From the IMG/VR virus record IMGVR_UViG_3300025897_002116, positions 1 through 64,000 of that record: a stretch of DNA of 64,000 nucleotides, one strand, 5' to 3'. The notes below the pieces were generated by a model. It was not told the DNA's origin and searched no databases. It was given only the letters and a program-made list of their open reading frames with translations. Position 1 is the first letter of the stretch. Each line of letters begins with the position of its first letter. Shown here piece by piece: positions 8,234-60,045 of the stretch. This DNA is from a virus. A program made the translations under genes and the position numbers.

Positions 8234-8263
8234 AACCTTTATTTTTATCTATTTGACTTATAC

Positions 8264-8295
8264 CTAAATATACGAACTTTAATTCAGAAAGGCAA
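8264..8295 (-). promoter_or_regulatory. Reiterated promoter cassette
   Basis: AAGTTGCCTTTC with TTG at 8295-8293, 20-nt spacer ending AAAGTTCG, TATATTTAGG from 8272, then GTATAAG and AAAGGTTATG. It starts immediately after the stop of the 83-residue gene. Confidence 0.85.
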
Positions 8296-8296
8296 C

Positions 8297-8548
8297 TTAT
8301 GCCGAACAACGATCATCACCTAAATCTACCTCTCTACGGTACACCGCACCCTTTACAGAGTCTTCCCAGTACCCTTTAACAATAGCCTGCTTACATTCAC
8401 CAAGAGTATCGCAATGTAGATGGTCACCGAGTTTGTTATTAACCGGCTTAATAATCCAATCATTGTATATGGCTCGGTAGGAAGCTATGAAAGATAAACT
8501 AGCCGTAACTATGTTATAACTGCCTGCTTTAATTTTAGTAACCTTCAT
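8297..8548 (-). CDS. Hypothetical early protein
   Basis: An 83-residue protein (starts MKVTKIKAGSYNIVTA) of unknown family with two cysteines and a 'GECKQAIVKGYW' segment. The ATG is preceded by AAAGGTT and lies 12 nt after the stop of the 50-residue gene, so both form one operon from the promoter at 8733-8764. Confidence 0.65.
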   Translation of the reverse strand: MKVTKIKAGSYNIVTASLSFIASYRAIYNDWIIKPVNNKLGDHLHCDTLGECKQAIVKGYWEDSVKGAVYRREVDLGDDRCSA

Positions 8549-8560
8549 AACCTTTATTGT

Positions 8561-8713
8561 TTAATGTCCTGTATAAATGTCTTGCCCTGATATCGTAGTA
8601 ACCTCACCCGTAATAAGATCTGTCATCTCTATCAGCTCATCATCCGTTATATAACCTGAACCCCATGCCTTAATAAGATCGTTGATTGCCTGCTGTGTTG
8701 ATTGTCTGTCCAT
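8561..8713 (-). CDS. Hypothetical 50-residue early protein
   Basis: The protein MDRQSTQQAINDLIKAWGSG... ends with SGQDIYTGH. A longer ORF (to 8764) exists, but its extra 17 codons overlie the promoter, and the conserved leader AGAGGTTATG points to the ATG at 8713; that start is chosen. Short helical acidic protein, no family recognised. Confidence 0.65.
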   Translation of the reverse strand: MDRQSTQQAINDLIKAWGSGYITDDELIEMTDLITGEVTTISGQDIYTGH

Positions 8714-8732
8714 AACCTCTTTCTTTATATAC

Positions 8733-8764
8733 CTAAAGATACGAACTATAAGTTTAAAAGGCAA
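8733..8764 (-). promoter_or_regulatory. Reiterated promoter cassette
   Basis: TTG at 8764-8762, 20-nt spacer ending TAGTTCG, TATCTTTAGG from 8741. It decides the start of the following gene at 8713. Confidence 0.85.
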
Positions 8765-9155
8765 CTATTATAGGAGATTTACATTCCGTCTAAGGTTCTC
8801 TTTATTCCTTTACCCTTCTCCTACCCTACCACATAGGCAACGTTATGAATATGCTAAAGGAATTAGGTTTTAGGGGTATACACGTCTAAATATATTTTGT
8901 ATGGCCGGAAAAGTTGTAAGGGAGACACATGCAGCCCAATACTTCACTTTCTAACCCCACAACAAACTACTTCATTTTTCTACACATCATACATCTATTC
9001 ATAGTACAATACAATCAATTCAATATATACATATATACTTACAATATAGTTCATACACTTCACCGTAAACAATCACCTTAACCTTCTTTCTCCCTTGATC
9101 TCTCTATGTCTGTCCATATATCGTATGTACCGGTGTACCTATGTTTGGTCAAAGT
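8765..9155. other. 391-base gap, no convincing protein gene
   Basis: All frames carry only short ORFs. On the minus strand TTG (9074-9072 region) and TATATTGTAAG with a ~21-nt spacer form a possible promoter near 9045-9075, which would drive an untranslated RNA or the tail of an operon through this gap. Nothing else is recognised. Confidence 0.35.
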
Positions 9156-9260
9156 CTATAATAACTCAGAGACGGGGTACGCCAGTACCTCCTCACCCTT
9201 TATCATCAGGTTTGGGAAGGCACGCCATTGTTGTTTGGTTGGTTGATAGGTTGGCTTCAT
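9156..9260 (-). CDS. Possible 34-residue peptide gene
   Basis: ATG at 9260 opens a 34-codon frame (MKPTYQPTKQQWRAFPNL...YPVSELL). It follows hairpin element 1 in the same way that two accepted genes follow elements 2 and 3, which is the main reason to list it. Base composition is GC-richer than neighbouring genes, and a longer frame to 9365 runs through the hairpin and is not accepted. Confidence 0.3.
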   Translation of the reverse strand: MKPTYQPTKQQWRAFPNLMIKGEEVLAYPVSELL

Positions 9261-9276
9261 TTGAGACTTTAGTTGA

Positions 9277-9326
9277 AAATGCGCGTGGCACCTTCGGTGG
9301 AGAGATGAAAACCCCCTCCCCCTCAT
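9277..9326 (-). repeat. Covarying hairpin element, copy 1
   Basis: Read on the minus strand: a G-rich run (GAGGGGGAGGGGG), CTCTCC, a CACC-GAA-GGTG hairpin and CACGCGC. The stem sequence differs from copies 2 and 3 but pairing is kept; GGAGGG can pair with CTCTCC. It lies between the gene ending at 9369 and the possible peptide starting at 9260. Confidence 0.6.
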
Positions 9327-9368
9327 CATTCCTATCCTCCATCCAATCCCATTCCCTACCGGCATTGA

Positions 9369-9890
9369 TCATAATACTGCATTACTATTAATCTGTCTAT
9401 CAAAGCAAAATGTCTCATAATCTTTCTCATTAACCTTATACCCCCAATGCAATAAAGATTGCTGTATCCTTGGAGATATATTCCAATTGCCTTCATTATG
9501 TATCTTTGTATATATTCCTGTTCTCCATCTACCGTTGCTACCGCAGAACTCCTGCCATCTCTGTATCTGTCTATTATCGTCTGAGTGCCTTCTTCCGTTA
9601 TGGTACTTTGTATACCACTCAAACCAACCATATGGATCATCCTTATGCATCCATTTCATATCCCTCCAATAAGCATAGTTCATTCCACTTCTTATCTTGA
9701 ACTTATTCATCTTAGGTTTGTATGTTTCTCCTAAGTATAAGCTTGTGTCTACGTTATCGTACGTTTCAAATAGAGTACTATACTCACAATCACCTTCTAG
9801 TTTTTCTATACCAAAATACGATCCTCCGAATATTCCTTCTCTAAGCATCTCACTTGGTGTCAATAAAGGGTTGAATTGTAATGTACTCAT
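9369..9890 (-). CDS. Conserved hypothetical protein (YxxYHxGRR...DDxRQIxRW type)
   Basis: A 173-residue protein. The segment WFEWYTKYHNGRRHSDDNRQ followed by IQRWQEFCGSNGRW is a pattern I recall from a widespread uncharacterised protein family; no catalytic function is known to me. N-terminus MSTLQFNPLLTPSEMLREGI and FGGSYF also look conserved. Hairpin element 2 sits between it and the gene upstream. A shorter overlapping ORF in another frame is a shadow. Confidence 0.75.
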   Translation of the reverse strand: MSTLQFNPLLTPSEMLREGIFGGSYFGIEKLEGDCEYSTLFETYDNVDTSLYLGETYKPKMNKFKIRSGMNYAYWRDMKWMHKDDPYGWFEWYTKYHNGRRHSDDNRQIQRWQEFCGSNGRWRTGIYTKIHNEGNWNISPRIQQSLLHWGYKVNEKDYETFCFDRQINSNAVL

Positions 9891-9905
9891 ATGTAGTTTA
9901 TGTTA

Positions 9906-9959
9906 ATTTCGCGCGTGTCAACTTCGTTGACGGGAGAACAAACGCCCCCGCCCCCTCAT
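9906..9959 (-). repeat. Covarying hairpin element, copy 2
   Basis: Minus strand: GAGGGGGCGGGGGCG, TCTCCC, the perfect 6-bp hairpin GTCAAC-GAA-GTTGAC, then ACGCGCGAA and, 16 nt later, the ATG at 9890. CGGGGG can pair with CTCCCG. Intercistronic position between two small genes. Confidence 0.65.
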
Positions 9960-9980
9960 CCTTATCCTTCTACTTAAAAA

Positions 9981-10199
9981 TTAGCGCTGTACGTTGCTAA
10001 AATAAGTCTTCAATGTATCCAATCTATCATCTGCATCTGTTAGCATCATTAATGCATCTTCGGCATTTTTATAGAAATCATCTGTTGAATGATCTCCTAT
10101 GCCGGCCGGATGATTAGATAAAAGATTTAATGTTAGTAGGGCCTTTGCTTTATCTGCCTTTGCAGATGATTTTAACATAATGTATAGTTCTTCTTTCAT
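9981..10199 (-). CDS. Hypothetical helical protein
   Basis: A 72-residue protein (MKEELYIMLKSSAKADKAKA...) predicted to be all helical; no family recognised. It lies 11 nt after the stop of the 52-residue gene, as part of the same operon. Confidence 0.65.
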   Translation of the reverse strand: MKEELYIMLKSSAKADKAKALLTLNLLSNHPAGIGDHSTDDFYKNAEDALMMLTDADDRLDTLKTYFSNVQR

Positions 10200-10210
10200 A
10201 GTTCTGAGGT

Positions 10211-10369
10211 TTAGCTTTTAGAAATATATTTGTAGTATCTGTATATCTCATCTTTGGTACCCATAATTTCAATCACCTCTGGAATTCCTTTCTCCTCTAA
10301 TTCTCTGAGTAGATCTTTATCCGTAGCGTTCATAAAGTCAACTGTTACCTGCATGAATATTTGTTTCAT
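10211..10369 (-). CDS. Hypothetical 52-residue protein
   Basis: A short gene found by reading the gap: MKQIFMQVTVDFMNATDKDL...EIYRYYKYISKS. Its ATG overlaps the stop of the gene upstream as ATGA, and its stop is 11 nt before the next gene, so spacing on both sides is that of a coupled operon. A strand followed by a helical body is likely; no family recognised. Confidence 0.6.
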   Translation of the reverse strand: MKQIFMQVTVDFMNATDKDLLRELEEKGIPEVIEIMGTKDEIYRYYKYISKS

Positions 10370-10581
10370 TTTATCTTATATTTCTTCTTATATATATCAA
10401 TGAATGCTTTTCCTACACCTACATCCAATATCTCCATTCCGGCTGGTATCTTCTTTGATCTCTCTGCAAGTATAGGATCTACATATCTTAGGTCCGTAAA
10501 TACTTTAAGCCAAACTTTTCTACCGTTTGGTTTCTTGTATGTTACTGCTATCGGGATCTGTTCTTTTGGTATATATGTCAT
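10366..10581 (-). CDS. Hypothetical basic protein
   Basis: The start is set at the ATG at 10581 (MTYIPKEQIPIAVTYKKPNG...), giving 71 residues; the longer frame to 10629 would run through hairpin element 3, which ends just upstream of this ATG. Lys-rich with conserved-looking KVWLKVFTDLRYVDPILAER. Function unknown. Confidence 0.65.
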   Translation of the reverse strand: MTYIPKEQIPIAVTYKKPNGRKVWLKVFTDLRYVDPILAERSKKIPAGMEILDVGVGKAFIDIYKKKYKIK

Positions 10582-10582
10582 A

Positions 10583-10636
10583 ATTCGCGCGTGACTCCTT
10601 CGGAGGAGAGAGGTTAAACGCACCCTCACCCCCTTA
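10583..10636 (-). repeat. Covarying hairpin element, copy 3
   Basis: Minus strand: AAGGGGGTGAGGGTGCG, CTCTCTCC, the hairpin CTCC-GAA-GGAG, then CACGCGCGAATT directly before the ATG at 10581. GAGGG can pair with CTCTC. Same order of parts as copies 1 and 2. Confidence 0.65.
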
Positions 10637-10642
10637 GTTTAA

Positions 10643-11149
10643 TTATTCAAATAAACTTAACTGTACTGTACGTATTTCAGGAACTATCTTATAAGCACTC
10701 AAAACCTTTCTAGTTGGTCTGAATGCTTCAATGCCCCAGTCAGCTAATTCTCCATCTATTACTGCTACTGCATGCTTTGCAACCGTCACTATATAGTTAC
10801 CTTTAGGATGAGATTGAACAAAGCTTTTTAAAGTCTTCTTTCTCCATACAAAATCACCGTTGAATTTATACCTATTCTTAGTCGACTTAGATCCTAATAC
10901 CTCAACTTTAGCTTTCTTATCACCAAGCAGTATTCCTTTTGATTCAGCTTCTTCGAATTTACTATTAATAACTTTTTCTAAAGTTCCTTTTTTATCCTTC
11001 CTAGCGAAGGTCTCTTTTGCAACTTTATGTGCTATTGTATAATCTACTTCTCCTGCTATCGCTAATGCTCTCACAAAGCAATCATTTTTCTCTTTTGCAG
11101 CAAGAGGTGAACTAAATTCCGAGTAATTTTTTTGAATGTCTAAATACAT
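10643..11149 (-). CDS. Papain-like cysteine peptidase fold protein with C-terminal clamp-binding motif
   Basis: A 168-residue protein. NDCFVRALAIAG (Cys at about 24), a later KHAVAVIDG (His about 126) and ADWG (Asp about 136) have the Cys-His-Asp order of papain-like/C39-like peptidases. The last residues, TVQLSLFE, contain QLSLF, the consensus bacterial beta-sliding-clamp-binding motif. The gene has its own promoter cassette, so it is probably expressed early. Catalysis and clamp binding are inferred from motifs only. Confidence 0.6.
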   Translation of the reverse strand: MYLDIQKNYSEFSSPLAAKEKNDCFVRALAIAGEVDYTIAHKVAKETFARKDKKGTLEKVINSKFEEAESKGILLGDKKAKVEVLGSKSTKNRYKFNGDFVWRKKTLKSFVQSHPKGNYIVTVAKHAVAVIDGELADWGIEAFRPTRKVLSAYKIVPEIRTVQLSLFE

Positions 11150-11176
11150 AACCTTTTTTTTTATTTTAACTTATAC

Positions 11177-11208
11177 CTAAATATACGAACTTTAATTGTA
11201 AAAAGCAA
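11177..11208 (-). promoter_or_regulatory. Reiterated promoter cassette
   Basis: TTG at 11208-11206, 20-nt spacer ending AAAGTTCG, TATATTTAGG from 11185, then AAAAGGTTATG. Drives the cysteine-peptidase-like gene and the genes coupled to it. Confidence 0.85.
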
Positions 11209-11212
11209 CCTT

Positions 11213-11596
11213 TTAGGCTACTTTATTTTCTACAAAAACTTTGTCTGCCCAAGTCTTAGCATTCACAGCTGAGTATTGGTGCTGATCATATAGGTTCGTG
11301 TTAAAGAATAGTTGATTGACTTCTCCTACAGTCACCTGAGCCATGAGCTCTTTATCCATAAAAACTATGGTTTTTCCTTTACGAGCAAATACTGTTAACC
11401 AGAACTCTGAACCTTCGGCTCTGAATTGAATAGTTTGCAAAGCTCCTTTCTTCCAATTACTTAACTTTGGCATGATAGTACCAACTTCGTAAGCTTTCAT
11501 AAATCCAGCTTTTACTTTAACGATTGCTTGGTAAGTTCCTTTTTGACCTTTGATGTAGTCTACTATGTTGATCGATGTTGTATTTCTAATTTCCAT
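11213..11596 (-). CDS. Hypothetical early protein
   Basis: A 127-residue protein, alternating strands and loops (TYQAIVKVKAGFMKAYEVGT; SEFWLTVFARKGKTIVFMDK), no family recognised. Single-gene transcription unit: promoter cassette upstream and the next gene's cassette directly downstream. Confidence 0.7.
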   Translation of the reverse strand: MEIRNTTSINIVDYIKGQKGTYQAIVKVKAGFMKAYEVGTIMPKLSNWKKGALQTIQFRAEGSEFWLTVFARKGKTIVFMDKELMAQVTVGEVNQLFFNTNLYDQHQYSAVNAKTWADKVFVENKVA

Positions 11597-11626
11597 AACC
11601 TTTATTTTTATCTTTTTAACTTATAC

Positions 11627-11658
11627 CTAAATATACGAACTTTAAGCCGGAAAGGCAA
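11627..11658 (-). promoter_or_regulatory. Reiterated promoter cassette
   Basis: TTG at 11658-11656, 20-nt spacer ending AAAGTTCG, TATATTTAGG from 11635, AAATAAAGGTTATG at the start codon. It directly follows an intrinsic terminator. Confidence 0.9.
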
Positions 11659-11667
11659 CTTTTAACC

Positions 11668-11693
11668 AAAAAAAAACGGAAAGAATTCCGTTT
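11668..11693 (-). terminator. Intrinsic terminator
   Basis: Minus strand: AAACGGAA, loop TTCT, TTCCGTTT, then six more T. It ends the unit carrying the 83- and 257-residue genes, just before the next promoter. Confidence 0.85.
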
Positions 11694-11711
11694 AATTTTA
11701 AAAACAAGGGG

Positions 11712-11963
11712 CTATGAAATCCTAGTATTTATTTGTTCTTTCTTAATTTCCAATTGTATTACCAAGTCTTCATAAAAAAGACTAACAAGTTCATTTGTAA
11801 AAAAAGTATTACCTTTGGCAGTCAGCCAGGGAGGTGATAAATACATTCTTATAAAATTATTGGCAAGCTTCTGAGAGGTTCCAATTTGCTCTAAAGTTAA
11901 ACAGGAGTTTATTGCTCTCACTGTAAATTTGTAATTCTTAAGAATTTGTCTCTTTAGTTTCAT
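11712..11963 (-). CDS. Hypothetical helical protein
   Basis: An 83-residue, basic N-terminus, helical protein (MKLKRQILKNYKFTVRAINS...). No family recognised. Four bases separate it from the gene upstream; an intrinsic terminator follows 18 nt after the stop. Confidence 0.65.
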   Translation of the reverse strand: MKLKRQILKNYKFTVRAINSCLTLEQIGTSQKLANNFIRMYLSPPWLTAKGNTFFTNELVSLFYEDLVIQLEIKKEQINTRIS

Positions 11964-11967
11964 AAGC

Positions 11968-12741
11968 TTATTTGATGATTAGGTCTTTAAAGTCATTAAC
12001 GAATACCTCTACATTACTAACTCTTACTCCTTTTACTTTATGAATATGTTTAATATTATCATACGTGGAATGAGTAGTTACTAATAGATCAGCTGATTTG
12101 CCGGACGCAGTTACCTTACTAGCAGCAATTCTAACTATATTGGATAGAGTATGATCAAATTTAACTCTAAGTTTAGTTCTATCACTTCTATTAAAATTAA
12201 TACCTTTAGTTAGAAGGTTATCTAATAAGTTAACTTTATCTAAAGAGTCTACTACAGTTCTTTGAGCCTCAATTAACTTAAATAGTTCCGTACGCTTAGT
12301 CTTAAACGTTTCAATAAACTTATTGTATTTAGTAGTACAATTATTTAAGTCTGTAAGGATATCCTCTTTGTATTCAACAGCAATATTGATATAATGATCA
12401 ATCACATTTCGTTTTTCTCTAAGAATTATGTCATTACTGATTTCATATCTTTGAGAACTCATTGATAACTCAATTGAATTATGTAATCGAAAATTATCAT
12501 CATTCCATGAGGTATAGGTATATAGCGACAGTATAGTTGAATTGTTTTTAAAATCATTTATTTCAACATATTCATTACCTATTCTAACTTTGAAGTTTTC
12601 AGAAAAGTCATCTTGAAAATAACGAGCTAGTATTTCTCTCTTTTCATTATCAGCTCTTTGAGTTAAAGAACTAATTCTGATATCCAATTCTGCTTTTTCT
12701 GTAGTTAGCTTATCTAACTGATCTCTATGTAAATTTTTCAT
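11968..12741 (-). CDS. Hypothetical coiled-coil protein
   Basis: A 257-residue protein. Residues 1-35 (LDKLTTEKAELDIRISSLTQ) and about 140-175 form coiled-coil-like helices around a strand-rich middle. No family recognised. It is the first gene after a promoter cassette and is coupled to the 83-residue gene. Confidence 0.7.
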   Translation of the reverse strand: MKNLHRDQLDKLTTEKAELDIRISSLTQRADNEKREILARYFQDDFSENFKVRIGNEYVEINDFKNNSTILSLYTYTSWNDDNFRLHNSIELSMSSQRYEISNDIILREKRNVIDHYINIAVEYKEDILTDLNNCTTKYNKFIETFKTKRTELFKLIEAQRTVVDSLDKVNLLDNLLTKGINFNRSDRTKLRVKFDHTLSNIVRIAASKVTASGKSADLLVTTHSTYDNIKHIHKVKGVRVSNVEVFVNDFKDLIIK

Positions 12742-12771
12742 AACCTTTATTTTTATCTTTTTAACTTATAC

Positions 12772-12803
12772 CTAAAGATACGAACTTTAAGCCGGAAAGG
12801 CAA
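12772..12803 (-). promoter_or_regulatory. Reiterated promoter cassette
   Basis: TTG at 12803-12801, 20-nt spacer ending AAAGTTCG, TATCTTTAGG from 12780, AAATAAAGGTTATG. Confidence 0.9.
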
Positions 12804-12825
12804 CTATTATCTTAATATTATTTAG

Positions 12826-13188
12826 TTAAAGGCTATTTAATAGCCCTAATGATCCAGAGAAGTCTACTCCAGCTATTACAGATTCCGGAGAGTCAACTAC
12901 CTTAGTAACCATTTCTTTTAACTGTGTATGTATTTCTTCCTCCAGTTTTACTGCAGATCTCTGTTTACTTCTCTCCTGTTCAGTCCAGCCTTCACCACCT
13001 AGTCTGATAGAATCATGACTTGCAAAATCACATTCTCTGGTAAGTTCACCGCTCAGGGTATGACCTTCATAGTCAATTAGCATACTAAAAAAGTATCCTT
13101 CATTATGTACACTGTAGGCTTTGTACTCGTCTATGAGTAGATTCTTGGCTTTACTAAAATTCTTTTTTCTTAATGCTGTTTTTGTCAT
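12826..13188 (-). CDS. Hypothetical early protein
   Basis: A 120-residue acidic protein (MTKTALRKKNFSKAKNLLID... LKEMVTKVVDSPESVIAGVD) with no recognised family. It has its own promoter cassette. Confidence 0.7.
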   Translation of the reverse strand: MTKTALRKKNFSKAKNLLIDEYKAYSVHNEGYFFSMLIDYEGHTLSGELTRECDFASHDSIRLGGEGWTEQERSKQRSAVKLEEEIHTQLKEMVTKVVDSPESVIAGVDFSGSLGLLNSL

Positions 13189-13218
13189 AACCTTTATTTA
13201 TATCTTTTTAACTTATAC

Positions 13219-13250
13219 CTAAATATACGAACTTTAAACCAGAAAAGCAA
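13219..13250 (-). promoter_or_regulatory. Reiterated promoter cassette
   Basis: TTG at 13250-13248, 20-nt spacer ending AAAGTTCG, TATATTTAGG from 13227, AAAGGTTATG at the start. Confidence 0.9.
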
Positions 13251-13268
13251 CTGCTTTTGTGACGTATT

Positions 13269-13364
13269 TTACCTACTATTAAACCACCAAATGAGTGTAT
13301 GTACGATTATTGCCACTAGTAACCACCATTGTATTCTTCTTGATTCACGTTTCTGAGAGTTCAT
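13269..13364 (-). CDS. 31-residue single-pass membrane peptide
   Basis: MNSQKRESRRIQWWLLVAII followed by VHTLIWWFNSR. Basic N-terminus and one Trp-rich hydrophobic helix (about residues 12-28). Its ATG overlaps the stop of the 32-residue gene as ATGA, which supports it as the third gene of a small membrane-peptide operon. Confidence 0.55.
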   Translation of the reverse strand: MNSQKRESRRIQWWLLVAIIVHTLIWWFNSR

Positions 13365-13459
13365 TTTTTGTATTTATCTTTAAGGAAGCTAATCATAGAC
13401 ATACAGTATAATACGAATATTAATGTTGCAATATCTATTATTAATCTAAATTCATCCAT
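13361..13459 (-). CDS. 32-residue single-pass membrane peptide
   Basis: MDEFRLIIDIATLIFVLYCM then SMISFLKDKYKK. One hydrophobic helix (about 5-25) with a basic tail. Five bases separate it from the 74-residue gene; it overlaps the next gene by 4 nt. Confidence 0.55.
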   Translation of the reverse strand: MDEFRLIIDIATLIFVLYCMSMISFLKDKYKK

Positions 13460-13464
13460 ATTGA

Positions 13465-13689
13465 TTATACGTTTTCTTTTCTTTTATTATCCTGAACAAC
13501 AAAGTAGTAAGAGAACCCTATAAGGGCTATTGATAGAATTAAAAGTGTAGTAATTGGATTCATCATCATTACATATAAGACTAAGAAAAAAGCCTTGATT
13601 GACTGTATCAACAAAAATACTGCGCATATTGTAGCCCCTATGGCTGCAAGTATGGTGAGGAATCTAAATATTAAATCTTCTATTTTCAT
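13465..13689 (-). CDS. Small two-pass membrane protein
   Basis: A 74-residue protein with two hydrophobic segments (about 8-32 and 44-66) and a basic tail (QDNKRKENV). First gene after a promoter cassette and followed by two tiny membrane peptides in the same unit. Early membrane-targeting function is inference. Confidence 0.7.
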   Translation of the reverse strand: MKIEDLIFRFLTILAAIGATICAVFLLIQSIKAFFLVLYVMMMNPITTLLILSIALIGFSYYFVVQDNKRKENV

Positions 13690-13719
13690 AACCTTTATTT
13701 ATATCTTTTTAACTTATAC

Positions 13720-13751
13720 CTAAAGATACGAACTTTATCTTAAAAAGGCAA
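13720..13751 (-). promoter_or_regulatory. Reiterated promoter cassette
   Basis: TTG at 13751-13749, 20-nt spacer ending AACTTTA-type bases before CG, TATCTTTAGG from 13728, AAAGGTTATG. Confidence 0.85.
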
Positions 13752-13769
13752 CTTTCTTACGTTTTATTT

Positions 13770-13871
13770 TTAATGCCCTAAATGCATTTCTATCTCCCAC
13801 ATCTCCATTTCTTCAATTTCTTTTGAGGTGAAGTTTGTATTAGCTAGCATTAATTCTTTTAGGTATTCCAT
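13770..13871 (-). CDS. 33-residue acidic peptide
   Basis: MEYLKELMLANTNFTSKEIE then EMEMWEIEMHLGH. Short, acidic, Met-rich, helical. It lies 10 nt after the gene upstream and ends just before the next promoter cassette. Unknown function. Confidence 0.5.
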   Translation of the reverse strand: MEYLKELMLANTNFTSKEIEEMEMWEIEMHLGH

Positions 13872-13881
13872 AACTATTATT

Positions 13882-14082
13882 TTATTTTTTTATAGGTTGA
13901 TGACCCTCAAGCATTAGATTCCAATACTTCCTTAATTTAGAGGGCAGTGACGAATTGGGAGGAGATTTTAGTTTTGCTAATTCACTACATAACCATCCGT
14001 AGTCTGGATGTTTGTTCGTAGCTAATAACGTAAATGAGATTGCATCGGCCAATTTTCTTGTTTCTTTATCAATTCTTTTCAT
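13882..14082 (-). CDS. Hypothetical 66-residue protein
   Basis: Start placed at the ATG at 14082 (MKRIDKETRKLADAISFTLL...), which overlaps the end of the 38-residue gene by 14 nt; a start at 14106 is possible but would overlap it by 38 nt. Basic helical protein, no family recognised. Confidence 0.6.
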   Translation of the reverse strand: MKRIDKETRKLADAISFTLLATNKHPDYGWLCSELAKLKSPPNSSLPSKLRKYWNLMLEGHQPIKK

Positions 14083-14185
14083 TATGTATTTTTTTATTAA
14101 TACCACTTGATATTACAGTTCCAACGGAATTTGCATGAACACTCAGTAAGTACATAGCTTTTTCTAATTCACTCATCTTTTTCAT
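14069..14185 (-). CDS. Hypothetical 38-residue peptide
   Basis: MKKMSELEKAMYLLSVHANS then VGTVISSGINKKIHNEKN. It starts exactly at the AAAGGTTATG-type leader of a promoter cassette, which is good evidence that it is translated. Unknown function. Confidence 0.6.
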   Translation of the reverse strand: MKKMSELEKAMYLLSVHANSVGTVISSGINKKIHNEKN

Positions 14186-14215
14186 AACCTTTATTTTTAT
14201 CTTTTTAACTTATAC

Positions 14216-14247
14216 CTAAATATACGAACTTAAAATCAGAAAGGCAA
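14216..14247 (-). promoter_or_regulatory. Reiterated promoter cassette
   Basis: TTG at 14247-14245, 20-nt spacer ending AAGTTCG, TATATTTAGG from 14224, AAATAAAGGTTATG. Rightmost member of the tandem series. Confidence 0.9.
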
Positions 14248-26312: not shown

Positions 26313-26351
26313 AATTATAACCTTTTAAGTTTATTTTTACTTTTAATATAC

Positions 26352-31157: not shown

Positions 31158-31949
31158 CTAAAAAGTTATTCCTTTAATTTCTTGACCAATCGGTCTATGT
31201 GAATTATTTTTGTACCGGGTTGGCGGTGTTCCCCACTTATAAATATACGTCTCTGCTGCTGGACCTTCTGTTGCCTTAAACGCTGTACCTTCCTTACCGT
31301 TTTTTGTTGCTGAGGAGCCGAAGTGGTAAAAATGTGCTTGATGAGTTCTGATAAAAGTCATTCCTTTAAGGTCTAATTTTAAAAAGAAATCCCAATCACA
31401 TATAAATGGAGATTTATAGAGTGTATCGAATCCTCCAACGATCATGTAGTCTATCTTTTGCATAGCAAAAGGAAAAATTCCTCCATCATTAGTAGTCTTC
31501 ACCTCACTAATACTTTTTTCATACTTAAGAAATCCTTCGTAGTCAAAGGTACTGGGTGTACGACCTAAATCCTTTGCAGGAAAGTTAAAAATCCCAGGTC
31601 CTTCTGGTTCAATCTGATTAATAGTAAGAACTGTATTAGTGAGTTCTGTTTGCTCTATGACTGTATCCCAGCCTTTACTTAGAACATTGTCATCATTTAT
31701 AATACATATTTTTTTATTTTTTGCATTATATACTCCAAGGTTTAAAGCCATCTGCATTCCTTGATTATCAGCTAGTGGAAGCACATTAATGCTGTCTTTA
31801 TATCTGTTCAGTATATGTTTGCTCTCTTCTACAAATCCATCTACAATTACTATTATTTCATTTTTATTATCTTGACCTTCGAGAGCAGATCTTAAGCATA
31901 TATCCAAAAACTCAGGATTTCTATAGGTAGGTATTATTAAACTAATCAT
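31158..31949 (-). CDS. Family 2 glycosyltransferase
   Basis: A 263-residue GT-A protein: SLIIPTYRNPEFLDICLRSA, IIVIVDGFVEES, NQGMQMALNLGVYNAKN and the metal-binding ICIINDDNVLS (about 86-95), then a CDWDFFLKLDLKG acceptor region. Standard GT2 layout. Overlaps the epimerase gene by 8 nt. Confidence 0.85.
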   Translation of the reverse strand: MISLIIPTYRNPEFLDICLRSALEGQDNKNEIIVIVDGFVEESKHILNRYKDSINVLPLADNQGMQMALNLGVYNAKNKKICIINDDNVLSKGWDTVIEQTELTNTVLTINQIEPEGPGIFNFPAKDLGRTPSTFDYEGFLKYEKSISEVKTTNDGGIFPFAMQKIDYMIVGGFDTLYKSPFICDWDFFLKLDLKGMTFIRTHQAHFYHFGSSATKNGKEGTAFKATEGPAAETYIYKWGTPPTRYKNNSHRPIGQEIKGITF

Positions 31950-32949
31950 TTTTCCAAAATTTATAAATTCCTTTTTCTAATTCATATTTTTCCCATACAA
32001 ATCTATCTTGCATAGGTTGGTGATTTGCCCAAATCCACATTTTTTCTAAACCATCTCTCAATGTAGTTGTAAATTTAAAATCTAATAAATCAATAGATTT
32101 TTGAAAGGTTGGTATTGAATGTTTTACTTCATGTCTTGCTTCTAAGTACCTAAATTTATCCTCAGTTCCAATTACGGATTTAAGAGTATTAGCAGCTTCC
32201 TCTATTGATATTTCCTCAACACCTCCTAAGTTAATAATTTGTTTTGATGTTTGTTCCCTTACAGCAGCATTCCATAAAGGCTCTAATATATCATCTATAA
32301 AACTAAATGCCCTAGTTTGTGAACCATCTCCAAATATAGTCATTTGTTCCTGATTGATATACTGGTACATCCATATGCCTAGTACATTTCTATACTTGTC
32401 CCATATATTTTGTTTAATACCGTAAACATTATGGGGTCTTATTATACAGTAATCTAATCCGTGCTGTTCGTTTGCAATTTGGATATCCATTTCACAGGCA
32501 TATTTTGCTACACCGTATGGGTCAATAGGCTTAGGTACTTGTTTTTCGTCAAATATGCCACCATACCCATGACCGTATACAGCAAGTGTTGATGTAAATA
32601 CTAGCCGTTTAACGTCGTTTTTAATACATTCATTGACTATACGTGCTGTAACCTTTAAGTTGTTATCATAGTTAAAGCAGCGAATAAAAGGTGATAATCC
32701 TTCTGCTGCATAGGCAGCAAAGTGAAACACATAATCAAACTTATGAACTTCAAAGCAGTTCTCAATAGGGTGATCTACTAAGTTCATTTGCCAAAATGTA
32801 ACTTTAGGGTGTACATTAGTTTTATACCCCCCACTTAGATCATCAATACCTACTACTTCATATTCTGGTTTATTTTCTATAATCCAATCTGCTAGTCTGC
32901 TTCCTAGTAGTCCTGCTACTCCTGTAATTAGTATTGTTTTCTTACTCAT
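31942..32949 (-). CDS. NAD-dependent nucleotide-sugar epimerase/dehydratase
   Basis: A 335-residue extended SDR: TGVAGLLGSRLADWI (GxxGxxG, about 7-15), VFHFAAYAAEG, TSTLAVYGHG and YGVAKYACEMD (YxxxK, about 147-151), IRPHNVYG and GDGSQTRAFSFIDDI. This pattern is that of UDP-glucose 4-epimerase-like enzymes. It makes a nucleotide sugar for the neighbouring glycosyltransferases; exact product unknown. Confidence 0.85.
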   Translation of the reverse strand: MSKKTILITGVAGLLGSRLADWIIENKPEYEVVGIDDLSGGYKTNVHPKVTFWQMNLVDHPIENCFEVHKFDYVFHFAAYAAEGLSPFIRCFNYDNNLKVTARIVNECIKNDVKRLVFTSTLAVYGHGYGGIFDEKQVPKPIDPYGVAKYACEMDIQIANEQHGLDYCIIRPHNVYGIKQNIWDKYRNVLGIWMYQYINQEQMTIFGDGSQTRAFSFIDDILEPLWNAAVREQTSKQIINLGGVEEISIEEAANTLKSVIGTEDKFRYLEARHEVKHSIPTFQKSIDLLDFKFTTTLRDGLEKMWIWANHQPMQDRFVWEKYELEKGIYKFWKND

Positions 32950-35812: not shown

Positions 35813-36638
35813 TACTTTCGCTAATTGCTCTACCTTTGCTTTTCTCCCAGTCTTTTTCTGGTCTAACCTCTAGGTTTGTTTTCCAACCTCCTTTGATAGT
35901 ATGCAAGGGACTATCTAATTTATCAGCTAATGTAATTAATGCATTTACATCCTTAGGGAAACATGTTCCTCCGTATCCTAGTTTTCCATCTGGGCCAGGT
36001 ACATGTAGGTGACTATCTCCTATTCTCCCGTCTGAAGCGAAGCCGTATAATGCATCATTCCAGTTAGCACCTAGCTTGTCTGATAGTACTTTAAATTCAT
36101 TTACTATGGAAACCTTAGTAGCAAAAAAAGTATTATTCATATATTTAATTAGTTCGGCGGTAATATAATCAGTTTGAATTATATGTCTATTTCTAAATCT
36201 CTGCTCAAATAGCTGTGTTACTTTAGAACACAGATCTTTAGGTCCTCCGAAAATAATTCTTGCTTGAGTCAACATATCTAATTTAGCGGTTCTCTCAGTG
36301 AGAAACTCCGGACTAAATACTATATTAATTTTAGGGTACTTCTTTGAGAGAGCTAATGTAGTACCGGGTAGTACAGTGGATTTAAGTATATAGATAGGAC
36401 CTTCTGCAGCATCTTCAAATACTCTATCTACATAGGATGTGTCTTGAGATCCATCTTTAAACATTGGGGTTGGTACACAAACAAAAATAAAATCGCATTG
36501 ATCTATCTCCTCTTTTGTGTGAGTAGTTTTTAAAGGATCTAAATCATAGATTCTTAAATCAGTTGTTGGGGAGAAAGCAAATGCTTGACTCTCTCCTACA
36601 AACCCATTTCCTATCACTCCTACTTTAAATTTTTCCAT
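35802..36638 (-). CDS. Short UDP-glucose/GDP-mannose dehydrogenase-like protein
   Basis: A 278-residue protein with the NAD-binding start VGVIGNGFVGESQAFA, FIFVCVPTP, STVLPGTT, SPEFLTE and the catalytic-Cys motif GYGGTCFPKD (about 221-230). Normal family members have 390-450 residues; the C-terminal nucleotide-binding domain is absent here, a short form I associate with marine phages. Makes or binds uronic-acid-type nucleotide sugars if active. Confidence 0.85.
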   Translation of the reverse strand: MEKFKVGVIGNGFVGESQAFAFSPTTDLRIYDLDPLKTTHTKEEIDQCDFIFVCVPTPMFKDGSQDTSYVDRVFEDAAEGPIYILKSTVLPGTTLALSKKYPKINIVFSPEFLTERTAKLDMLTQARIIFGGPKDLCSKVTQLFEQRFRNRHIIQTDYITAELIKYMNNTFFATKVSIVNEFKVLSDKLGANWNDALYGFASDGRIGDSHLHVPGPDGKLGYGGTCFPKDVNALITLADKLDSPLHTIKGGWKTNLEVRPEKDWEKSKGRAISESNDT

Positions 36639-37302
36639 ATAGTAATTCTGCTATTTTGAATTGCCATTTATAATCTATATCAAATGCTTGATGCTCTTCT
36701 ATAGTATATAAGATAAGGTTTTCTTTTGAATAATCCACCATAAAATGATTATTTTTTATAATATTTAATTTCGATGCATATAAACAATGAGCTGCTTCGT
36801 AAGTGGGGTTTATAACTTTTGTGTTCATTATAGTTTCTCCAGCCGGCCAGGAGTTAATCATGTTACCGGATGCATCCCAATAGTACTGTTTTTTTTCTAT
36901 AACCGCAAATAAATTTTCTTCATCTTGAGTTAAAAATTTAGAAACAAAATCATCTATAGTTTTTATAGTCAAAAAAGGAATACATCCTGAGATTAGTACA
37001 ACATATTTGTAGTCAAGTTTATCATGCCATTCATATATTGTTTTAAGATCCTTATCTTCATTAGCAGATTCTTGACTCCTACTGTAAATATGTATACCTT
37101 TTTTAGAAGCTATGTTTTTTAACTCCTCCTCATATACCGAGGCAATGATTTGTTTTTTAGGTATAATAGAAGAAGTAATTAACTTGTCTAATACTAGATC
37201 AAATAAGGTAGTGCCTGCAAAAGGTTCAAGCATTTTTTGAGGAACCCTCTGACTGTTTAGTCTTGCTTGAACAATAAATGCTACATCTTTAATGTCTTTC
37301 AC
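36625..37302 (-). CDS. Cytidylyltransferase of the NeuA/PseF/SpsF type
   Basis: A 225-residue protein with the CTP-binding loop FIVQARLNSQRVPQKML (about 9-25), VVLISGCIPFL and a DIDYKWQF ending, the pattern of acylneuraminate cytidylyltransferases. It should activate a nonulosonic acid as the CMP-sugar. Overlaps the synthase gene by 4 nt, which supports a shared pathway. Confidence 0.8.
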   Translation of the reverse strand: MKDIKDVAFIVQARLNSQRVPQKMLEPFAGTTLFDLVLDKLITSSIIPKKQIIASVYEEELKNIASKKGIHIYSRSQESANEDKDLKTIYEWHDKLDYKYVVLISGCIPFLTIKTIDDFVSKFLTQDEENLFAVIEKKQYYWDASGNMINSWPAGETIMNTKVINPTYEAAHCLYASKLNIIKNNHFMVDYSKENLILYTIEEHQAFDIDYKWQFKIAELLYGKI

Positions 37303-38156
37303 CCTCTTAGTTTCTTTTTAATTTCTTCTTCAGCTTCTGTAACAACTATCTTTCCATCACCATAGGCTTCCTCTAGTTCCCTTATTCCGGAAACTAATTT
37401 AAAGAGGCCATGTGGGGTGACAGAACAGCTATGATCAGATCCCCAGCTCGTTCTATCTAAAGTTACATGTCTTTCTATAATAGTGGCCCCTAGGTATATA
37501 GCAGCAACTGTTGTGCCTAAAAGTAACTCATGTCCTGAGTATCCTATTTCACAGTCGGTGTATTTTTCAGCTAATGTATTTATAGCAGATAGATTAAGAT
37601 CTCTAACCGGTGTAGGGTATGAAGAATTACAATGAAGTATTCCTATTTGATGACCGTTTTTAAATAGGTCTTTTGCTTTTCTTAAAACATTTACTGCCGA
37701 GTCGATCTCCTCCTCTGTGGACATTCCTGTGGAAAGAATAACTTTCATGTTACTTTTCATACAAGATATAAGTATCTCATAATTAGTTAACATTGCAGAA
37801 GGTATTTTAATAAAAGGCAGGTTATATTGTTTTAAAAATTCTACCGAATCGTAATCCCAAGGAGAAGCAGACCAAGTAATTCCGGACTGTTTACAGTATG
37901 AATCTATAAAATCATATTCTTTTTTACCGAACTCTATCTTGTTTTTATATTCAAGATAGGGCATTTTTCCCCATGGAGTATCTCTTATAATATTTTTTTG
38001 ATGTTCAGGAATACTTTTATCAGGGTTTCTTTTTTGGAATTTGACTGCATTACAGCCTGCTGCTGCTGCTATATCTATAAGTTTTTTTGCAACAGAAAGA
38101 TCGCCGTTGTGATTAATACCTATTTCAGCTATGATATAGGTGTCAAATTTCTTCAA
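37299..38156 (-). CDS. Nonulosonic-acid synthase, NeuB/PseI/LegI family
   Basis: A 285-residue protein covering the TIM-barrel: IIAEIGINHNGDLSVAKKLI (about 8-27), AVKFQKR, LSTGMSTEEEID, LHCNSSYPTP, IGYSGHE and ERHVTLDR. These enzymes condense phosphoenolpyruvate with a hexosamine to give sialic-, pseudaminic- or legionaminic-type acids. The C-terminal SAF/antifreeze domain (~60 residues) present in most members is missing. Confidence 0.88.
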   Translation of the reverse strand: MKKFDTYIIAEIGINHNGDLSVAKKLIDIAAAAGCNAVKFQKRNPDKSIPEHQKNIIRDTPWGKMPYLEYKNKIEFGKKEYDFIDSYCKQSGITWSASPWDYDSVEFLKQYNLPFIKIPSAMLTNYEILISCMKSNMKVILSTGMSTEEEIDSAVNVLRKAKDLFKNGHQIGILHCNSSYPTPVRDLNLSAINTLAEKYTDCEIGYSGHELLLGTTVAAIYLGATIIERHVTLDRTSWGSDHSCSVTPHGLFKLVSGIRELEEAYGDGKIVVTEAEEEIKKKLRG

Positions 38157-42424: not shown

Positions 42425-42460
42425 AACTTTTTAATTTATATATAAATATATACGTATATA

Positions 42461-43423
42461 TTAAACCGCATCAGGACATAGCCTGTTTTGTTTAAAAGAG
42501 CAAAATCTACAATTATGTTTTGAAGGTGAAGTAGGGTACTCTTTATCTATATACTCTCCGTTTAGGTCCACTGCAGTTTTTACAAAATTATTCATTAGTG
42601 AAATTGCTTGACCTCTTTTAATCTTACCAGCGGATGGTTTAAACTCTTGTACTCTTTTTTGCATTGAGGCAAACTCTGCTTCAACAGGTACTTTTCTTTT
42701 TAGGATAAAATATTCTACTTCAATTCTATCTATGTCAATCCCAAATTGATTAGCAAAGAATTCTTTATATAGTAAGATTTGTGCTATTTTTTTATCGTCT
42801 TTCTTAGCATAATCATTCCATCCTGATGTTGATGTTTTAATATCAACAATAGTCCAAATATCTGCAGTAGAGTTATAAAAAACTAAGTCAATAAAGCCTT
42901 TAAACATCACTCCAGGTCTTAACTCCTGGTATAATAGTGTCTCTATGCCAGCTAAATACGTATTGTTAGTACTAAAGTACCCTCCTCGTTTTTTCTTTAA
43001 GTAATCTAGTATGTGTTTCCCGTCTAAGTAGAACATATTCAACTCTGCTGCGGTTGAAAAATGCTGATGACTGTTTTGTGCTTTATTAGATTTATAGGCT
43101 TTAATCATATTATCATAAAAAAGCTTATCTAAATCCATCTCATTGGCTGTCTTTACTTTATCTCGGTAAAGAACCTCTAGCCAGGTTTGTATAGTAGAGT
43201 GCATAGCTGTACCAAAGGCTGCATGAATAGAAGCTTGGTAGGGTGCTAAGTTTCTAACATAGGTTAAGTACCATTGCTTCTGACAGGAGGCAAAGGTAGA
43301 TAACTGGCTGTATGAAATATGTTTATTTGATTTAGGAGATTGTTTAAGTTTACTCTCCCATACTTGTTTTACTAAGGGATTAGCCTTAGTTTTTGTACCC
43401 TCGGGGTATATTTTTTTTGGCAT
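42461..43423 (-). CDS. RecB/Cas4-like PD-(D/E)XK nuclease with cysteine cluster
   Basis: A 320-residue protein: ISYSQLSTFASCQKQWYL, GTAMHSTIQTWLE (motif I His), FKGFIDLVFYN, WTIVDIKTSTSGW (D-x-K) and the QhxxY motif IAQILLYKEFF, all in RecB-nuclease order. One Cys near residue 48 and three near the end (HNCRFCSFKQNRLCPDAV) match the four-Cys iron-sulfur site of Cas4/AddB-type nucleases. Likely involved in DNA end processing during recombination. Confidence 0.8.
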   Translation of the reverse strand: MPKKIYPEGTKTKANPLVKQVWESKLKQSPKSNKHISYSQLSTFASCQKQWYLTYVRNLAPYQASIHAAFGTAMHSTIQTWLEVLYRDKVKTANEMDLDKLFYDNMIKAYKSNKAQNSHQHFSTAAELNMFYLDGKHILDYLKKKRGGYFSTNNTYLAGIETLLYQELRPGVMFKGFIDLVFYNSTADIWTIVDIKTSTSGWNDYAKKDDKKIAQILLYKEFFANQFGIDIDRIEVEYFILKRKVPVEAEFASMQKRVQEFKPSAGKIKRGQAISLMNNFVKTAVDLNGEYIDKEYPTSPSKHNCRFCSFKQNRLCPDAV

Positions 43424-49178: not shown

Positions 49179-49679
49179 TTACAAGTTTTTATTATGAACT
49201 AAAATACCATTAGCAAAAAAATTACTATTGTCTTCTACATGAAAAATATAAGTCTGTACTGGTTCTCTCTCCTGTTCTTCTAAGTCTACAAGTTTTACAT
49301 TCTCTAGTTCCAAATCAATTAAACTATCTCCTACTTTAAGTTGATTAATTTCGGAGGTAAAAGTGTATCTTGCTGATGTTAGGTTTGGTTTATAAGATGC
49401 TAGGTGTTTACCCTCAACATAGTATGGATGATCAAATGTAGAAATTATTTCAATATCATTTTCTAATATCAATTTGATTAAGTCATTATGTATAGAGGTA
49501 GAAACTTCTATTACTTCTTTAACTTCTATTTCTTGAGTTTTTTCGTTATAAGAGAGAACAAAATCACCTATTCTAATGTCCTCTATGTACTTAGTATAGT
49601 AATCCTCCATGGTAACCTCTGTACCTGCTACAAAGCAAAGTTTATTGGACATTTGTTTACTATTTAAAAATTTTTCCAT
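49179..49679 (-). CDS. Stand-alone Hint (intein-like) domain protein
   Basis: A 166-residue protein that is nearly all Hint domain: first Cys in LCFVAGTEVTM (about 15), STFDHPYYV (TxxH block, about 82) and the ending NFFANGILVHNKNL with the His-Asn pair (about 161-162). Only ~14 residues precede and three follow it; the residue after HN is Lys, so C-terminal cleavage rather than splicing is expected. Paralogous to the last Hint domain of the gene at 52084. Confidence 0.85.
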   Translation of the reverse strand: MEKFLNSKQMSNKLCFVAGTEVTMEDYYTKYIEDIRIGDFVLSYNEKTQEIEVKEVIEVSTSIHNDLIKLILENDIEIISTFDHPYYVEGKHLASYKPNLTSARYTFTSEINQLKVGDSLIDLELENVKLVDLEEQEREPVQTYIFHVEDNSNFFANGILVHNKNL

Positions 49680-52083: not shown

Positions 52084-54402
52084 TTATTTATTGTGCACTA
52101 ATATTCCGTTAGCGTAAAAATTTCTATTATCTTCAACGGAAAAAATATAAGTTTGAGTTGGTACAACTGGTAGTTCCGTTATACTCAAAATAGTAGTTTC
52201 AATATCACTATCTAATGTGTATACCGTATCACCAACTTTTATCTGAGAAACTTCTAACGGTAAGTCATATCTTTCGTTTGTTAACTTAGGAGCATACGAT
52301 GCAAGTTCTAAATTATTTACATAGAATGGGTGGTCATGTGTAGATATAACTTCTGTTTGATTTGAAAAAGTATATTTAACCAAATCATCATGTACTGGTG
52401 ATTCAGTATCTAATACATTCTTATCTTGATGTATTCCAGTTTTTTCATTATACGTTAAGACTGTATCACCAACTACTACGTCTTCTATGTTTTTTTCATC
52501 TCCATTGGATAACATAATTGAAGTTCCTGCAATAAAACAATACCTATTATGTACCAATACCTTATTTGCAAAAAAGTTATGATTTACTTCTACTGTCTTT
52601 ACATTGTAAACAGCAGTTGGTTCTGTTAGTATTTCGGTTGATAATATTGTTAATTCTGAACCATCTTGTTTAAATACTTTGAATCCTTCTTCTGCTTTTG
52701 TTGTAGTAAGATTGTATACACCTGTAGTGTAATCTGGGTCCATAGATACCCATCCTTTTTCTTTTGAATATAATGGATGATCTAACGTTGATTCTATAAT
52801 ACTGTTATCTTCAAATGTGTATTTTACAGTTGTATTTACCAATTTGGATCCGATTCCTTTAACTAAGTGCGGCTCTACTACATTAGTAGCAAAATTAAAA
52901 GACAAAACAGAATCTCCTATTTTAATATCTTCTACTAATTTATACTCGCCATTTGCTAAGGTAATTTCAGTTCCTGCTACAAAACAAGGAGCGTTGTGTG
53001 ATACGATGGCTTGAAAAGAAGTAGACCCACTTATGATATATGTATCAGTATCTTCAACATCTAACTCAACAATTTTCAAACCAGTATCGGATGTTACATA
53101 AAAGTTAACCTCGTCTATATCAATAATATTACCGTTTAAATCAAAGAAATAATCATCATCCGGGTTTAGATATTGGGTAGGTTTATATGCTGTTTGATTT
53201 GAAGAAGAATTATAGACTAACCACTGTTTACCGGTGCCGGTGAATTTAGAATCTGAATCGATTACAACTTCCATAAGTGCATTATAAGTTGAATCTCTTT
53301 CTACTTTAAATACAACTTGTGATGATGTTATGAATGATCCAGATGGTAATTCGTTACCTTCAAAATTCCAAGCTAGTAATGTGGAATCGGATTCAACTTG
53401 TGGTGAACCAGAAATAAAATACGATGATACAAAGTCTCCGACTTCCGTATCTCCTATTTCGGTGAAAGTACCGTCTACCATTTGTATTTTATGAGTAGAC
53501 AATATACCAGATGATCCTGCTTTTATAAAGTTTGTAGCAAACTCATAATAATGAATATCTGATAGCTTATTAATGTACCTTGTTGTGTCCACTTCAGATG
53601 ATATGTCAGCAGGTAATTCAAATATAGAACTTATCTTATAACTATGTAGTGTTACTACACTTAAATCACTCCCATACACTATTTGAAAAGATCTTACAGA
53701 TGTTATGTGGCCATTATCATCGGTATTAGACGTATTATAGTGATATTGGAGGATTAATTTATCATCTCCTTTAATTTCCTCTACAAATGAATTCCATCTA
53801 TCTTCGTTTGACTCATTTTCTACTGTAGAACCTATTTTATAGAAACTAATAGGGTTATATACTTCGGTTATATCCTTTATAGCAACATCTGGAATATTAG
53901 ATGGGTTAATAGTTGATTCTAGTGTATTTGTAATTGAATCAGATCCAGAGTAATAATGTGAAACTACAAAACTACCGCTATCAGTTGAATCACTTGAATC
54001 AAATAAACTAAGTAGCTCTAATGTGCTTTTACAGTATACACTATCAAATAAAGCAGATTCATCATATGCTAACCTTAATATAAATTTATCATCTGAATCT
54101 TCTATACTTTCTGGGTATATTGTGTTTAAATCCTCTGGATGTAGAACTATATTATCAGCAAGTGATGGAATACTTGTGGTTATAGCAGTAGATATCGCAG
54201 AAACTATCTCATTGTGAAAAACTGGTTTGTAAGTAATATGTAACTCAGCTATGTCATTTGTAGTAAGGATTTCAGCAAATTCAGTAAAATTAAAATTTGA
54301 CAATTCATTACCGACTATACTAGTATCTGTGTTTATTTCTAATAACCTAAGATTTCCATTACTGTCTTTTGCAAAATCTGCAGAAAAAAATGTGCCTTTC
54401 AT
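52084..54402 (-). CDS. Large virion-type protein with three tandem Hint domains
   Basis: A 772-residue protein. The N-terminus (FFSADFAKDSNGNLRLLEIN, then TDT) resembles the ATP-grasp-like start of some marine T4-like phage proteins. A degenerate Hint-like region (about 290-470) lacks the first Cys but ends VSHNAP. Two intact Hint domains follow (about 472-621 and 624-772): CFVAGTEITL/STLDHPLY/LVHNR and CFIAGTSIML/STHDHPFYV/LVHNK. Residues after HN are Arg, or Lys and then the end, so autocatalytic cleavage is more likely than splicing. The function of the released parts is unknown. Confidence 0.8.
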   Translation of the reverse strand: MKGTFFSADFAKDSNGNLRLLEINTDTSIVGNELSNFNFTEFAEILTTNDIAELHITYKPVFHNEIVSAISTAITTSIPSLADNIVLHPEDLNTIYPESIEDSDDKFILRLAYDESALFDSVYCKSTLELLSLFDSSDSTDSGSFVVSHYYSGSDSITNTLESTINPSNIPDVAIKDITEVYNPISFYKIGSTVENESNEDRWNSFVEEIKGDDKLILQYHYNTSNTDDNGHITSVRSFQIVYGSDLSVVTLHSYKISSIFELPADISSEVDTTRYINKLSDIHYYEFATNFIKAGSSGILSTHKIQMVDGTFTEIGDTEVGDFVSSYFISGSPQVESDSTLLAWNFEGNELPSGSFITSSQVVFKVERDSTYNALMEVVIDSDSKFTGTGKQWLVYNSSSNQTAYKPTQYLNPDDDYFFDLNGNIIDIDEVNFYVTSDTGLKIVELDVEDTDTYIISGSTSFQAIVSHNAPCFVAGTEITLANGEYKLVEDIKIGDSVLSFNFATNVVEPHLVKGIGSKLVNTTVKYTFEDNSIIESTLDHPLYSKEKGWVSMDPDYTTGVYNLTTTKAEEGFKVFKQDGSELTILSTEILTEPTAVYNVKTVEVNHNFFANKVLVHNRYCFIAGTSIMLSNGDEKNIEDVVVGDTVLTYNEKTGIHQDKNVLDTESPVHDDLVKYTFSNQTEVISTHDHPFYVNNLELASYAPKLTNERYDLPLEVSQIKVGDTVYTLDSDIETTILSITELPVVPTQTYIFSVEDNRNFYANGILVHNK

Positions 54403-54574: not shown

Positions 54575-54742
54575 TTATTTGTTTTCCTCTACGGAAGCGG
54601 CACGGTAAGCTGTAATCAACTTTTTTATTTCACCTGCGAATTTGCGAGCTCTCTGTTGAGACGCTTTAGTAGTGCCGGAATTGTTTTCTGCTAATCCGTT
54701 AAAATTAGACTGTATTTCTTCAAATAACTCTTGTTTGTTCAT
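54575..54742 (-). CDS. Histone H1/Hc1-like small basic protein
   Basis: A 55-residue gene read in the gap: MNKQELFEEIQSNFNGLAEN followed by GTTKASQQRARKFAGEIKK. Length, the 'G..KA...R.RK....IK' spacing and the helical basic character match the Hc1/H1-like histone family common in Bacteroidetes. It probably binds DNA. It is 19 nt after groEL in the same direction. Confidence 0.6.
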   Translation of the reverse strand: MNKQELFEEIQSNFNGLAENNSGTTKASQQRARKFAGEIKKLITAYRAASVEENK

Positions 54743-59784: not shown

Positions 59785-60045
59785 TTACATTTCTCCGTAA
59801 AGATCAAACTTTTCGGGTTCGGGCTCTTCTATCAATATTTCATTTTCCTTTATAGCAAATAACTTACCATTTAAAGGCTCTAGTCTATAATGACCTTTGA
59901 ATTGTGTTTTTCGCATATAAGCAGTTAGTGTTGCTACAAGGCCTGTGATAACTGTTGCTTTGTCTATTGTTAACTCCCAGCTATCACCAGGAGGAACTCT
60001 TTTAGCTATAAGTTCATTTTGCTCTTCTATTATTTTCTCAGTCAT
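59785..60045 (-). CDS. Hypothetical protein
   Basis: An 86-residue acidic protein (MTEKIIEEQNELIAKRVPPG...). No family recognised. Its start overlaps the radical SAM stop as TAATG, so it is the last gene of the nucleotide-modification operon. Confidence 0.7.
   Translation of the reverse strand: MTEKIIEEQNELIAKRVPPGDSWELTIDKATVITGLVATLTAYMRKTQFKGHYRLEPLNGKLFAIKENEILIEEPEPEKFDLYGEM

Follow-up and report, generated by a model that had tools for sequence, protein, structure and literature searches.

The question raised by this locus is what three short, similarly arranged segments between small phage genes represent. The window, as the whole analysed stretch is called here, covers the first 64,000 bases of a virus record 72,952 bases long, and Flavobacterium phage immuto is the nearest annotated relative of this phage by DNA. 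Three copies of a shared layout on the minus strand, listed in a preliminary description, were confirmed by sequence and by covariance models. Copy A spans positions 10581-10640, between a 168-aa gene of unknown function (PHROG 3754, 10643-11149) lying upstream of it and a 71-aa gene starting at 10581. Copy B (9905-9964) is found between a 72-aa gene (9981-10199) and a 173-aa gene of unknown function (9369-9890), designated SYFG, which neighbours copies B and C here and the element in other phages. Copy C (9275-9333) is located within a small ORF of 59 aa (9193-9372). All these features, and their substructures given below, are on the minus strand.

Model R1 was constructed from 59 related copies, including the three from the window; because these had been taken in, a second model, R2, was built exclusively from copies of other phages. 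With all filters off, R1 assigns 59.1, 61.8 and 61.4 bits to copies A, B and C, respectively, while the next best site in the window reaches 8.9 bits. R2 finds exactly the same three copies, with E = 1.2e-15, 1.6e-19 and 2e-18, and this type of search, proposed as a check, also recovers copies in many related phages. The motif CACGCGC occurs at three places in the window (0.26 expected), all of them in copies, at 10587-10593, 9911-9917 and 9281-9287. The sequence reveals GAA-loop hairpins precisely as initially described, CTCC-GAA-GGAG in copy A (10595-10605), GTCAAC-GAA-GTTGAC in copy B (9917-9931) and CACC-GAA-GGTG in copy C (9289-9299). The 3' sequence described as shared needs revision, as CACGCGCGA is true of two of the three copies and the common box is CACGCGC. 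Copies A and B do lie before start codons, as stated, and since copy C is situated 20 nt before an ATG (9260), every copy in the window is followed by a possible start codon.

The consensus element, read 5' to 3' on the coding strand, is ~50-65 nt long. Its first helix, P1 (about 7-12 bp), is formed by a G-rich and a CU-rich strand with many G-U pairs, enclosing a loop that starts with G(G)GCGY and continues U-rich. In copy A, a constrained fold and helix covariation in the family place P1 at 10606-10631, with the G-rich strand at 10631-10624 and the CU-rich strand at 10613-10606. The second helix, P2 (4-6 bp), is usually CNNC-GAA-GNNG and mostly abuts P1 (39 of 59 folds have no gap), being absent in some copies. 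It is followed by one base, CACGCGC, and an AU-rich tail close to RNWUU-YAAC-AA.

Both helices covary well above shuffled and slid controls, which corroborates the compensatory change proposed from the three copies, and the signal holds with more sequences. The covariation score is 0.456, compared to 0.299 in shuffled and at most 0.242 in slid alignments, and a further computation gave 0.440 against 0.269; these controls remove relatedness only in part, and the alignment (A4) was itself fitted to the model. In P2, both sides of the two inner variable pairs changed in 50 and 47 sequences, and 98.7% of cells are paired, while in P1 covariation is less clean and the helix is imperfect, with about 80% of cells paired. 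Single copies fold nearly as well as their dinucleotide-preserving shuffles (mean z -0.44), so that support for P1 comes from comparison across phages. The pairing of the G-rich and CU-rich tracts is thus real in the family, though weak in any one copy. Folding energy is lower on the coding strand (-17.8 kcal/mol) than on its complement (-12.8 kcal/mol; p 9e-17), which is what abundant G-U pairs in an RNA would lead one to expect. Fixed strand, G-U-rich pairing and covarying stems argue for RNA rather than DNA.

Distant copies indicate which parts of the element are dispensable. L194:2370 and L262:1653 do without P2, and in L188:1907 P1 is built of other letters, GUAGG/CCUAC, its loop retaining GCGC and CGCGC being kept 3' of it. 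Box variants GACGCGC, ACCCGCGC and GACCGCGC were observed among distant copies, CGCGC being nearly constant. Because GCGY in the P1 loop and GCGC in the box are kept together, they may pair in a pseudoknot. Both putative sides are nearly invariant and hence yield no covariation, and some copies without GCG in the P1 loop nevertheless keep the box.

The same element is widespread among related phages. Pattern scans through IMG/VR disclosed 14 stretches in the first round and at least 119 in the second, from which L040 and L087, found in GC-rich contigs, were discarded as chance matches; copy numbers are lower bounds, most contigs are fragments, and gene calls around copies are mechanical. Since fetching loci by the element biases counts, loci were also retrieved by neighbouring proteins. 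Of 53 loci fetched with the SYFG protein, 36 contained the element according to R1 (E ≤ 0.014), as did 32 of 80 fetched with the Hc1-like histone protein (Pfam Hc1, one of the scores lying just below the cut-off), and all model matches in these loci are on the strand of the gene (57/57 and 32/32, respectively). Between one and three copies were found in each of thirty large records. The cultured phage immuto has two copies according to the model, a strong one 3' of the Hc1-like gene, with groES and groEL as neighbours, and a degenerate one 5' of the SYFG gene. The elements of immuto are located at 42436-42494 and 64745-64794. A blastn search with one copy gave no match in phage records, a result that is uninformative since the covariance model does find both copies in immuto.

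Outside this group, the model had no match in Cobetia, Vibrio and Yersinia phages sharing the SYFG gene or in a 635-kb uncultured phage with an Hc1-like gene. In 257 Gb of bacterial genomes, 12 pattern matches were found, none with the G-rich/CU-rich architecture, and they are attributed to chance. As far as searched, the family is confined to one phage group. No Rfam 15 family matched in the window at gathering thresholds, 15 related loci gave no match except for a tRNA elsewhere, and permissive Rfam searches, with ribozyme models included, returned chance-level matches only. No published description was found in open-licence full texts. The impression that the element resembles nothing recognised is therefore supported within Rfam 15, and the family, united by covarying P1 and P2, the CGCGC box and fixed strand in both R1 and R2, is large, abundant, real and previously uncatalogued.

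By simple heuristics, 96 non-redundant copies were classified by context. A start codon is present within 32 nt of 25 copies and an intrinsic terminator near 18; 23 reside in a small ORF, and the other 30 belong to none of these groups. Among copies that are not in an ORF and whose upstream gene was identified, 49 of 53 begin -33 to +7 nt of the stop codon of that gene, making this codon the common factor of non-ORF copies, whatever follows. Tail composition is similar across all classes. In the start-codon class the AUG is typically 14-17 nt after the box, while some copies in the terminator class are positioned 10-16 nt before the terminator. The element is itself distinct from an intrinsic terminator, as it continues into CACGCGC and a mixed AU tail with no immediate U run, and any terminator is a separate structure farther 3'. 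In an immuto-like subgroup (L036, L060, L136), the region 3' of the element contains a further hairpin with a C-rich and a G-rich strand (CCCCACCC...GGGGGG), which lacks a U run.

Certain loci recur, namely those of the PHROG 3754, SYFG and Hc1 histone genes. The Hc1-like gene of the window (54575-54742, (-)) follows directly after groEL and lacks the element found 3' of it in relatives, so the element is not essential there. All three copies are enclosed in one interval between consecutive occurrences of a putative promoter motif, TTCGTATATTTAGGTAT at 11173-11189 (-) and its counterpart at 8729-8745. The pattern TTCGTAT[AC]TTTAGGTAT has 10 matches in the window with at most one mismatch (0.02 expected), upstream of genes; eight exact ones are concentrated in 8260-14228 (-) and two more are at 26348 and 43674. 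The idea that the element stands in for a promoter before the SYFG gene could be compared on very few promoter cases. Elsewhere in the window, also on the minus strand, we observed Hint/intein-like domains (Pfam PT-HINT, Intein_splicing; one in 49179-49679, two in 52084-54402), a sugar-synthesis/glycosyltransferase-like cluster at about 15-42 kb with NeuB (37299-38156), a cytidylyltransferase (36625-37302) and an epimerase (31942-32949), and a radical SAM superfamily protein (60045-61604) encoded in this phage genome.

Copies inside ORFs require separate consideration. In related small ORFs of other phages, the element keeps a conserved frame relative to CACGCGC. The N-terminal part of these ORFs is of the GWGF type, and many of them end in WCxYxGLPSPxAYM; in all 15 copies in which both peptide motifs were recognised, one open frame runs through the element, nearly always identical relative to CACGCGC. 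The 59-aa ORF of the window belongs to this class; it shares the start MIN[AS]GREWDWM with such ORFs and is without the C-terminal motif. This family of small ORFs (GWGF ... PRAFSTN ... WCxYxGLPSPxAYM; e.g. L034, L068, L086, L185) contains the RNA element, and the C-terminal peptide, with which the larger SYFG protein of some phages also terminates, looks like a portable tail. The open frame would suit a conserved protein-coding motif (PRAFSTN-like) mistaken for RNA. However, elsewhere the element comes after a stop codon, in a frame that varies, and changes in P2 track base pairing, not amino acids. The existence of non-coding copies refutes this reading for the family as a whole, and we consider it scarcely credible.

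The reading we prefer, tentatively and with a probability of roughly 0.4, is that of a phage-specific cis RNA marking an mRNA boundary for processing and/or 3'-end stabilisation. According to this proposal, the element would mark a boundary in a polycistronic phage mRNA. Cleavage within the single-stranded tail or close to it, whether self-catalysed or due to a nuclease of the host or the phage, would sever the message, and/or the compact fold would block 3'-to-5' decay, so that flanking cistrons would become separate, stabilised messages. A boundary function is favoured over translation of the next gene alone because copies end cistrons with or without a following gene. A sole role in starting the next gene fails because many copies occupy 3' UTRs immediately 5' of a terminator and some others are embedded in ORFs. 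From the two functions initially suggested, translation control or RNA processing, the latter is accordingly our best guess, while the former is disfavoured as the only role. A point against the boundary reading is that cleavage at in-ORF copies would cut the message of that very ORF.

The proposed mode of action is likened to that of RNase III sites in the T7 early operon, without the element being one of them. T7 early-region sites are folded and intercistronic, several per operon, and adjoin stop and start codons; their helices, which RNase III cuts, are longer and irregular, and their sequences are poorly conserved. The element is likewise present in intercistronic gaps of a polycistronic message, with the qualification that the in-ORF (23/96) and pre-terminator (18/96) copies depart from this location. 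It differs in its short stems and its conserved CGCGC box and tail. Membership among T7-type sites was rejected, given helices of about 7-12 and 4-6 bp instead of a long one of about 20 bp.

The few loci at which the element recurs, its conserved single-stranded box and the regular distance from box to AUG would suit an operator. An RNA-binding protein of phage or host origin (or an RNA) would recognise it and so regulate a few phage genes jointly, in their translation or stability. Such an operator is an unlikely alternative, since a terminator takes the place of a gene after 18 of the 96 copies, and 23 are inside an ORF. Indifference to gene context, be it start codon, terminator or ORF, is in turn what a small self-cleaving ribozyme could show. 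Its fold would be new, with the P1 loop pairing with the CGCGC box, an optional P2 and cleavage in or beside the conserved tail. The compact fold, conserved unpaired letters and possible pseudoknot are compatible with this, as is the retention of P1 with other letters, loop GCGC and downstream CGCGC in L188:1907. No Rfam ribozyme model matches, however, and in a topology resembling HDV-like ribozymes the loop is too short for P3, so we regard a ribozyme as improbable. Slightly less probable again is the specific proposal of a new self-cleaving class in operons of Flavobacterium-type phages that would cut polycistronic messages at gene boundaries.

The location of some copies shortly before an intrinsic terminator might instead suggest a cis antitermination or pausing element (put-/nut-like) acting on RNA polymerase. 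Six related loci (L008, L016, L047, L185, L186, L189) carry RTTCTTTGACATATTGG 34-53 nt 3' of the element, a sequence which we take to resemble the boxA region of Bacteroidetes rRNA leaders. This boxA-like sequence was rejected as a general companion, being limited to those six copies, and most copies have neither a terminator nor RTTCTTTGACATATTGG nearby. An outer stem between an upstream G tract and downstream C-rich sequence was rejected as well, since exchanging the partners gave pairing just as good (-7.9 kcal/mol for the actual partners, -8.1 for the swapped ones). Antitermination is therefore considered doubtful. Finally, the copies form GC-rich islands in AT-rich genomes, their presence varies at orthologous genes, and GAA-loop hairpins are stable in DNA too, all of which could suggest a promoter hairpin, a replication or recombination site, or a short mobile repeat. 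Against a DNA-level element are the fixed strand relative to genes and the many G-U pairs, while copies directly 5' of terminators make no sense as promoters and close relatives yielded no site from which the element is missing, leaving this reading very unlikely.

Comparison with catalogued RNAs places the element apart from each of them. Like HDV-like/theta ribozymes (PMC10879173), it is phage-borne, its downstream strand may pair back into the P1 loop, and an optional hairpin precedes that strand, minimal forms of those ribozymes being without P4. Unlike them, it has no P3/L3, tRNA association or Rfam match. Membership, defined by a nested double pseudoknot, was rejected because only about 3-10 nt separate the P1 strands, with no P3, a rejection that concerns this topology and does not extend to a ribozyme of another fold. 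The STAXI motif (RF01728; PMC2864571) is also a small pseudoknot motif, usually with two or three together, but it is tandem, has UUCG loops, belongs to Enterobacteriales and has no match in the window. The manA and wcaG motifs (PMC2864571) are similarly structured RNAs of marine metagenomes and T4-like phages (cyanophages), but they are 5' UTR motifs beside metabolic genes, and there is no Rfam match here. The L17 downstream element (RF01708; PMC2864571) is likewise a structured RNA, placed in a bacterial 3' UTR, but is from Lactobacillales and Listeria and has no match here.

Phage immuto provides a cultured member of the family in which function of the element is directly testable. If mRNA is processed or protected at these sites, the element would show how Bacteroidota phages separate cistrons of one message; if it is self-cleaving, it would represent a new ribozyme class.
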